Shown one piece after another: positions 41,825 to 44,028 of a stretch of 64,000 nt of DNA (positions are counted from its first letter, which is position 1; every line of letters starts with the position of its first letter). The notes under the pieces were generated by a model. That model was not told where the DNA came from. It saw nothing but the letters and a program-made list of their open reading frames with translations, and did not search any database. This stretch comes from Verrucomicrobiales bacterium. Lineage in GTDB: Bacteria > Verrucomicrobiota > Verrucomicrobiia > Verrucomicrobiales > V1-33. The translations under genes and the position numbers were made by a program. Where the stretch lies: NCBI GenBank assembly GCA_018003315.1, contig JAGNEJ010000001.1, forward strand, positions 62,001 through 126,000, read 5' to 3'.

Positions 41825-42580
41825 ATGCCGATGCGTGGAATCCTGCCATTTTCTGTTCTTGCCCCACTGCTGTGCGGTCCGTTGGTGATGACGTTGCAGG
41901 CGGATGGAAAAAACCTCATCGCGAATCCGACATTTGAGGATCGGAACCATCCGCTGGCCGGCTACCGGATCGACTTTCCGCACGAGGAATGGTATCGGAA
42001 AAACAAGGGCTATGTGCGCGTGGTCAACAACCCCAAGGGCTCTGGAAAATGTGTCCAGATCGACCTGCCGCCCGGCGTGGCCGGCAACGAAGGCGGGAAG
42101 ATCGAGACGGAATTTCTCCCGGTGGTGCCCGGGGCGACTTACCGGGTGGAGGTGGACTGCCTGACCTGGGATTTCACCGCGAAACTGCACGCTGAGGCTT
42201 GGGTGAAAGATCCGCGACCACATCCCAAACCGGACAAATTCTGCGTTCCCGCGGAAGGGAGCCGCCCCGCCCTGGTGCAGTGCTACCGGGCGCAGATTCC
42301 CGATCCGGGCGGCCGCCTCAAGGAATGGAAAACCGTGAGCCGGGAATTTACCGTGCCCATGGCGGCGGTGGTGGCGGGAAAAAAATGCGCGCCGGCCTGG
42401 CTTTCCGTAAAGGCCTACACCTACGCCGCCACGATGGATGCCGGAAAATGTTACTTCCGGAATTTCCGCCTCTTTCTGATCAAGACACCGGAGGGAAACA
42501 GCGGTGGCACCGTGGAAAAGAACGGACTGAACCGCCAACCTGAAATGCCTGCACCCGGTCGGACACCTCCCGGCAAATGA
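41825..42580 (+). CDS. Secreted protein with a carbohydrate-binding-like fold
   Basis: About 251 residues beginning with a signal peptide (MRGILPFSVLAPLLCGPLVMTLQA; ATG 41825 or 41831). The mature N-terminus NLIANPTFEDRNHPLAGYRI is the typical first strand ('N..F E') of jelly-roll carbohydrate-binding modules, and KIETEFLPVVPGATYRVEVD continues the pattern. There is no catalytic domain, so it is probably a small binding or surface protein. It is the last gene before the restriction-modification unit, and ends 71 bp before it. Confidence 0.6.
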   Translation: MPMRGILPFSVLAPLLCGPLVMTLQADGKNLIANPTFEDRNHPLAGYRIDFPHEEWYRKNKGYVRVVNNPKGSGKCVQIDLPPGVAGNEGGKIETEFLPVVPGATYRVEVDCLTWDFTAKLHAEAWVKDPRPHPKPDKFCVPAEGSRPALVQCYRAQIPDPGGRLKEWKTVSREFTVPMAAVVAGKKCAPAWLSVKAYTYAATMDAGKCYFRNFRLFLIKTPEGNSGGTVEKNGLNRQPEMPAPGRTPPGK

Positions 42581-42651
42581 CTGCGGTGCGACAGTTGCAT
42601 TGTTCGCAAAAAATATCGCCCCTTCGCAGTTTCTAAGTCAATCTACAACGC

Positions 42652-43242
42652 ATGCCGATCAGTGCCTTTCCCAAATCTATTCGAGACCACTTCGAGCTTC
42701 ATGAGTGGCGCCATGCATCCGCCATTTTCGAGCGCGATTTTCCCGCAGAATGGGCAGATGTGTGCGACGTTTTGTCACGCTTCCGCCTCTGCGAGTCTTT
42801 TCTAACGACACCGGGCGGCCGCAAGTCGCAGGTTTCTGAATGGATTGATAGCCAGCTCTACAAGAGGGGCTGGGTGGAGAAGGAGTTTGACACATCTTTT
42901 GTCGTTGACGGAAAGGCAGTGGAGAGCCCAACCCATACCGTGGACTGTTATAAAAATCGTGTTGCGCTCGAAATCGAGTGGAACAACAAGGATCCCTTTT
43001 TCGACCGTGACCTAAACAATTTCAGACTGTTGTTTGAGCTTCGGGTGATTTCGATCGGAATCATCGTCACCCGTTGCGACTCGCTTCAGGAGATTTTCGA
43101 CTCCTTTGGACGTGGCAAGAGCTACGGAGCCTCAACCACGCACATGAGCAAACTGCTTCCGAAGATTGAGGGCGGGGGCGGCGGGGGCTGCCCCGTTTTG
43201 GTTTTCGGCATCAAGGAGACACTCTATGACAAAAGTTGTTAA
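42652..43242 (+). CDS. BglII-like type II restriction endonuclease
   Basis: A 196-residue protein with a PD-(D/E)XK-type core at Asp98-x8-Glu107-Ile-Glu109 (DCYKNRVALEIEW). In BglII the catalytic residues have the same spacing, D-x8-E-x-Q, so Glu109 replaces the Gln. Other conserved parts are NNKDPFFDRDLNNFRLLFEL and GIIVTRCDSL. BglII cuts AGATCT, but this enzyme's site cannot be deduced. Base composition is clearly lower in GC than the flanking genes. It overlaps its partner methyltransferase by 17 bp; nuclease first, methylase second. No control (C) protein or promoter box is evident. Confidence 0.78.
   Translation: MPISAFPKSIRDHFELHEWRHASAIFERDFPAEWADVCDVLSRFRLCESFLTTPGGRKSQVSEWIDSQLYKRGWVEKEFDTSFVVDGKAVESPTHTVDCYKNRVALEIEWNNKDPFFDRDLNNFRLLFELRVISIGIIVTRCDSLQEIFDSFGRGKSYGASTTHMSKLLPKIEGGGGGGCPVLVFGIKETLYDKSC
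43213..43218 (+). promoter_or_regulatory. Strong Shine-Dalgarno for the methyltransferase, inside the nuclease gene
   Basis: AAGGAG lies 7 nt before ATG 43226 and within the last codons of the endonuclease gene. It fixes the methyltransferase start and differs from most genes here, which have no Shine-Dalgarno sequence. A strong site for the methylase and none for the nuclease would favour protection before cutting. Confidence 0.6.
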
Positions 43243-43909
43243 CATCCCGCAACCCACGCCAGCCGATGACCTTATGGCGAAGGCATCGGAAAGATACACA
43301 ACTATTCTGGCTGACCCTCCGTGGCAATTCCAGAATCGAACTGGCAAGATGGCACCTGAGCACAAGCGTTTGCTCCGATATCCAACTATGGAATTGAAGG
43401 AGATCATGGAGCTTCCTGTTCCTCGTCTTGCGGCAGCGAAGTCCCACCTTTACCTGTGGGTTCCGAATGCACTTTTGCAGGAAGGATTAAAGGTGATGGA
43501 GGCATGGGGATTCACCTACAAGTGCAATCTTGTGTGGTTCAAGGTTCGGAAGGACGGAGGGCCAGATGGTCGTGGAGTCGGTTTCTACTTCCGTAATGTT
43601 ACTGAACTGATTCTTTTTGGTGTGAGAGGCAGTATGCGCACCCTTCAACCCGGCAGAACCCAAGTGAACTTGCTTGCGACCCAGAAACGCGAACACAGCA
43701 GAAAGCCAGATGAGATCTATGACATTATCGAAGGGTGCTCACCTGGACCATATCTAGAGTTGTTTGCGCGATTCCGACGTGACGGCTGGGATCAGTGGGG
43801 CAATGAAGATGTCGAAGAGAATTCATTTCATGGCGTTGCCAAGCGCAACGGGCATCACGACTCACAGATGAGACTGTTTGAGGGACCAGCGCAATATCGG
43901 CGAAAATAA
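43226..43909 (+). CDS. MT-A70-family DNA adenine-N6 methyltransferase
   Basis: A 227-residue methyltransferase with the catalytic Asp30-Pro-Pro-Trp33 (DPPW) and the MT-A70 pattern: TTILADPPWQF, HLYLWVPNALLQEGLKVMEAWGF, NLVWFKVRK, GFYFRNVTELILFGVRG and REHSRKPDEIYDIIEGCSPGPYLELFAR. It should transfer a methyl group from SAM to N6 of adenine in the sequence cut by the adjacent endonuclease. ATG 43226 is chosen for its strong Shine-Dalgarno; an upstream in-frame ATG (43166) would encode a Gly/Ala-rich extension within the nuclease gene. Lower GC than the surroundings indicates transfer together with the nuclease. Confidence 0.86.
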   Translation: MTKVVNIPQPTPADDLMAKASERYTTILADPPWQFQNRTGKMAPEHKRLLRYPTMELKEIMELPVPRLAAAKSHLYLWVPNALLQEGLKVMEAWGFTYKCNLVWFKVRKDGGPDGRGVGFYFRNVTELILFGVRGSMRTLQPGRTQVNLLATQKREHSRKPDEIYDIIEGCSPGPYLELFARFRRDGWDQWGNEDVEENSFHGVAKRNGHHDSQMRLFEGPAQYRRK

Positions 43910-43928
43910 AATACGAACCATCGCATGG

Positions 43929-44028
43929 ACCTAACGCCTACCCGCTGTCACGCCGGATGCTGGATCACTTCGCCCGCTGGCATCCGTCGCGCCACCGATC
44001 CGGCGTAGGTCATGCGGGACGTTAGAAT
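43929..44028 (+). other. attC-like integron recombination site (candidate)
   Basis: A ~95-nt imperfect palindrome directly after the methyltransferase. Its outer arms are CTAACG (43931-43936) and CGTTAG (44020-44025), next CCCGC (43941-43945) and GCGGG (44014-44018), then CGCCGGAT (43951-43958) and ATCCGGCG (43998-44005), with a small inner hairpin GGATGC/GCATCC. The left end ACCTAAC fits RYYYAAC, the attC R'' box. The right end GTTAGAA fits GTTRRRY except in the last base. Order (gene, then R''-L''-L'-R') is that of a gene cassette. No integrase gene or second site is found in the window. The right end lies 6 to 9 nt before the ATG of the next gene. Confidence 0.5.

Follow-up and report, generated by a model that had tools for sequence, protein, structure and literature searches.

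Insertion of integron cassettes into genomes at attG sites has been described (Loot et al. 2024, as cited in PMC11023631 and PMC12901181), and by the integron rule cleavage takes place at G/TT (PMC12901181). CALINs, which are defined by at least two attC sites and no intI, are reported by IntegronFinder 2.0 from two attC sites upwards by default (PMC9024848). Integrons of Verrucomicrobiota, like restriction cassettes, have been documented before (PMC8618304). The 64,000-nucleotide stretch of DNA analysed here (the window) comes from a Verrucomicrobiales genome assembled in 155 contigs, and it carries a unit that is very probably a single integron cassette with a type II restriction-modification (R-M) pair, excised as a circle by an integrase and inserted outside an array. 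As such it clearly belongs to an established type of mobile DNA, not to a new one. An initial annotation of the window had already proposed a solitary cassette of integron type, which is borne out by the attC model and by the single attC in the window; the alternative it offered, membership of a cluster lacking an integrase, is not, since one attC falls short of the two or more that define a CALIN.

The first gene of the unit encodes a BglII-type restriction endonuclease of 196 aa (42652..43242, + strand) that matches the Pfam family Endonuc-BglII (PF09195) over the entire profile (148 bits, E 2.7e-43). The second encodes an MT-A70 family adenine methyltransferase of 227 aa with a DPPW motif (43226..43909, + strand), which matches PF05063 (106.5 bits), PADLOC type II methyltransferase profiles (309 bits) and, by sequence, MT-A70/METTL3 structures. 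Both open reading frames lie on the + strand and overlap by 17 bp, so the profile matches and the overlap confirm the overlapping BglII-like nuclease and MT-A70 methyltransferase genes that had been recognized from the bare sequence. With a BglII nuclease domain and an adjoining methyltransferase, the pair belongs to the type II R-M systems of BglII type. Residues D98, E107, I108 and E109 of the nuclease are invariant across 22 homologues from many phyla and, going by the spacing in BglII, are likely to belong to its catalytic set; single-sequence and profile searches of the nuclease against PDB sequences gave no match. In almost every one of the 80 homologous loci retrieved, a methyltransferase lies directly 3' of the nuclease, and BglII-type nucleases were found in 23/388 genomes.

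The pair would restrict foreign DNA, the nuclease presumably cutting unmodified DNA and the methyltransferase shielding host sites. In 232 kb comprising the window and 12 other stretches of its own genome, AGATCT is under-represented (9 seen versus 25 expected), a deficit that is compatible with BglII specificity without showing it. The same 232 kb lack GTCGAC (58 expected) and GAGCTC (36 expected) entirely, and CAGCTG and CACGTG are rare in it, hinting at other restriction specificities in the lineage. Elsewhere in the genome, a 33-aa fragment that is 88% identical to the MT-A70 methyltransferase (contig C89, 19068-19166) is possibly the remnant of a second methyltransferase copy.

The unit ends in a genuine attC site of 116 bp (43912..44027, + strand), which begins 2 bp past the methyltransferase stop codon and thus stands at the 3' end of the cassette genes and in their orientation, as in integron cassettes. 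A search with attC covariance models, proposed in the initial annotation as a check whose failure would refute the cassette, matched 43912-44027 on the + strand with both models built. The first, R1, was made from 25 sites of Verrucomicrobiota integrons and of plasmids including class 1 integrons, with the window excluded; these sites align gap-free, with AAC and CGTT invariant. R1 gives the window site 17.9 bits, a score such as array sites also reach, and finds 109 sites across 436 kb of loci that contain integrons. The second model, R2, was trained on those 109 array sites, likewise without the window locus, and scores the same site at 33.9 bits (E 1.8e-5 over 182 kb, E-values being rough according to the tool). 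With filters off, over 10 kb, R1 does not list the site, unlike R1 with default filters. An attC finder that demands perfect R pairing misses the site and was replaced.

The R'' box TACGAAC (43912..43918, + strand) is placed by covariance model and geometry, and the L'' box CGCATGGAC (43922..43930, + strand), with one extrahelical base, and the L' box GTCATGCG (44009..44016, + strand) by geometry; the R' core GTTAGAA (44021..44027, + strand) is read from the sequence, its bases from 44022 on being host flank. A geometry rule that requires an L box of 8 bp, a single extrahelical base at a fixed offset and a GTTR core picks out just one position in the window versus 0.025 expected (1 match in 40 dinucleotide-shuffled windows). 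Folded de novo, the bottom strand of 43912-44027 reaches -31.6 kcal/mol (z -3.3; 1/200 shuffles as good) and the top strand a less stable -23.6 kcal/mol; in the bottom-strand fold the L boxes are paired and the extrahelical bases lie on the L'' side, and the bottom strand is the expected recombining strand. The site keeps its GTT and AAC cores, and its L boxes pair so as to leave a single base of L'' extrahelical. Between R'' and R', only 4/6 positions scored are paired, and both boxes depart from the full GTTRRRY/RYYYAAC consensus, GTTAGAA at the last base and TACGAAC at three; the attC sites of the same genome and of the training set vary from it too, so that it is no absolute requirement.

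The left arm holds extra internal bases that allow alternative pairing, and the CTAACG/CGTTAG pairing is such an alternative, weaker register. The initial annotation had seen an attC-like site in the palindrome 3' of the genes and had taken ACCTAAC (43929) for its left end. The palindrome is present as described, occurs once in the genome and exceeds chance by fold z-score and geometry, and its attC character is upheld by model score, geometry and fold. ACCTAAC as R'' was rejected, as models and geometry place R'' at 43912. The same hairpin might be read as a transcription terminator or a dispersed REP-like repeat behind an R-M pair acquired in some other way. It is indeed a GC-rich inverted repeat behind a gene, and related loci do contain REP-like elements, but no T run follows at the hairpin end, a terminator scan does not list it, its single copy does not suit a dispersed element, and it conforms to attC in geometry, in model score and in where its extrahelical base lies, which together make such a reading highly improbable. 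An Rfam search over the region gave no match.

The genome has an integron of its own. Contig C112 encodes an integron integrase (312 bits, above the TIGR02249 cut-off) that is split by a frameshift at a CCCCCC run (locus L102, 1900-1960). Homopolymers in intI are slippage hotspots favouring inactivation (PMC11023631); the frameshift here possibly reflects real inactivation or an assembly error. Behind the integrase and in the same direction lie a proposed attI with two GACCGGTCGGT repeats and then a cassette of 46% GC, with G/TTCGAT at its start and a 34.2-bit attC at its end. This attC and that of the window have in common the motifs CGAAC, CCTAACGCCT, ACCCG and GGCGTAGG; CCTAACGCC, part of the inner stem of the window attC, is likewise common to the C112 attC and to a half site on contig C116. 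That half site (C116:15177-15219) follows a gene, preserves the left half of this type of attC but not the right, and reads as a truncated cassette end. R2 also matches C112 at L102 3521-3747 with 21.9 bits, possibly a false positive; this doubtful match covers the start of a YefM-like antitoxin-type open reading frame near the integrase (L102 3199-3588). Upstream of the integrase, L102 2611-2916 is duplicated at 94% identity on contig C153 (locus L104, 1-307), which also carries an integrase C-terminal fragment.

Genome-wide, with 150 of ~2000 candidates scored, attC matches were found on at least contigs C90, C25, C74, C106, C112 and C143; both the intI and the further attC sites that the initial annotation had suggested looking for exist. 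The window's own site was not listed by this search. Two of the contigs share a 430-bp cassette encoding a 130-aa protein without known function, in copies that are 95.8% identical: the C90 copy (41.6-42.0 kb; L198) sits beside other attC sites and the C25 copy (14.5-15.0 kb; L199) is alone. Identity starts at GTTCTCC and ends at CGTT, with the flanks diverging at the G/TT crossover on both sides, and the R'' box GGAGAAC and 5' core GTTCTCC of this cassette are complementary at every position. The idea that the C90 and C25 matches are REP hairpins was dropped after this boundary comparison. Together, the array copy and the lone copy support the same reading for the window unit.

The cassette of the window would span 1,419 bp (42603..44021, + strand), from the T of G/TTCGCA to the G of G/TTAGAA. 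Its 3' end is given by the attC model and the geometry. The best candidate for its 5' end is the core GTTCGCA (42602..42608, + strand), as judged from complementarity to R'' TACGAAC at 6/7 positions and from an attI-like flank; the gap contains three GTT in all, so that a match this good would arise by chance with an estimated probability of ~0.15. The first cassette of the C112 integron likewise starts G/TTCGAT. Of ~4840 GTT sites compared, this junction comes second only to attI itself, the 48 bp before it (42555..42602, + strand) agreeing with the proposed C112 attI in 28 positions for a length that was chosen post hoc, and the distance of CCGGTCGG in this flank from the crossover equals that of the outer direct repeat in the proposed C112 attI. 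Another site in the window, at 41893, is nearly as attI-like (25/48; 31 against 30 at 60 bp), and the attI-like character of the flank is best taken as suggestive.

The same resemblance would be expected if the flank were a decayed attI, the relic of another integron platform that captured the cassette in the normal way, lost its integrase gene and left the cassette solitary at a later stage. We regard this as unlikely: no integrase remnant adjoins the unit, the upstream gene is without a family match, its reading frame overlaps the attI-like stretch, and the window holds one attC only. For insertion of a lone cassette outside an array, which we prefer, the empty site would read ...GTTGCATTG joined to TTAGAATCCATG. 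No orthologous empty site was found among 37 relatives searched, because the neighbour genes have no close orthologues in them.

Related R-M pairs lie beside attC in at least four other genomes. Among the 80 homologue loci, an attC adjoins the pair in three: L029 (an array with at least three sites), L036 and L040, the L-box arms of the last being nearly those of the window attC; locus L222 (genome G181) was counted as the same case as L040, because its attC is identical. On 814 kb around homologous R-M genes, R2 gives only four matches up to E 10 (two in L029 and one each in L036 and L040), and in every such locus the nuclease gene lies by an attC. In genome G089, the pair is ~3.3 kb from intI and among attC-like repeats, with a REP-transposase-like insertion interrupting the stretch behind the methyltransferase. 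REP or REP-transposase-like insertions lie directly behind the methyltransferase, at the expected place of an attC, in L029 (from 5100) and L140 (from 8480 down). An integron integrase above the cut-off is encoded in 81/289 Verrucomicrobiota genomes sampled, and attC matches were found in 8/11 relatives, including the sole genome of the same genus. The initial annotation had held an R-M system of this type in Verrucomicrobiota to be of interest; because integrases are this frequent and similar pairs adjoin attC elsewhere, it is less surprising than supposed.

GC content is 52.4% for 42603-44021 versus a window mean of 61.8%, in agreement with the earlier remark that the unit is lower in GC than its flanks, and the first 1.3 kb (51.7%) are the second lowest of 1,254 1.3-kb stretches (mean 61.8%, s.d. 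2.6%). GC and GC3 below those of the neighbour genes would suit a cassette that was acquired horizontally from the integron of another species in a single insertion, with the resident array uninvolved. So would the identity of 64-83% that nuclease relatives share across phyla, and the near match of the L-box arms to those of the G181/L040 attC, which belongs to another Verrucomicrobiota family. Against this stand the internal attC motifs, which match the resident C112 site, and we hold the scenario as a possible but less favoured one; a foreign origin of the cassette and action of the resident integrase may both be true.

For the preferred reading of a cassette placed outside an array, a mechanism can be proposed from sequence comparison. 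IntI would act on the folded bottom strand of attC, the cassette would be released as a circle by the integron integrase, and the circle would be joined to the chromosome at a double-stranded G/TT; this target, which separates two host genes and lies away from the array, is perhaps attI-like. Because the window attC resembles that of C112, the C112 integrase or a close relative probably inserted the cassette; because a resident integron, further attC sites and the C90/C25 pair are present, insertion outside the array is the most likely origin of the lone cassette. More tentatively, BglII/MT-A70 pairs could be long-lived, recurrent integron cargo that is inherited across phyla along with its own attC arms, the integrase of this host placing cassettes at attI-like chromosomal sites and so spreading defence genes beyond its array. 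The locus offers a natural example, from a little-studied phylum, of a defence cassette off the array that can be compared directly with the genome's own integron. The C90/C25 pair shows, within one genome, a cassette outside the array as well as its copy in the array, so that the target rule of off-array insertion becomes readable from sequence.

Among known systems, the unit resembles cassettes at genomic attG or secondary sites in being a single cassette with an attC and putative G/TT junctions outside any array, and differs from them in that its insertion is deduced from sequence, its flank is attI-like and its host belongs to the Verrucomicrobiota. With CALINs it shares an attC without an adjacent integrase, although a single attC sets it apart. 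Its nuclease matches the BglII family of type II enzymes (PF09195) across the whole domain but is paired with an MT-A70 methyltransferase. Finally, like the restriction and methylation cassettes of chromosomal integrons (reviewed in PMC8618304), it carries defence genes as cassette cargo, whereas neither this type of R-M pair nor such a solitary placement is described in the literature surveyed.
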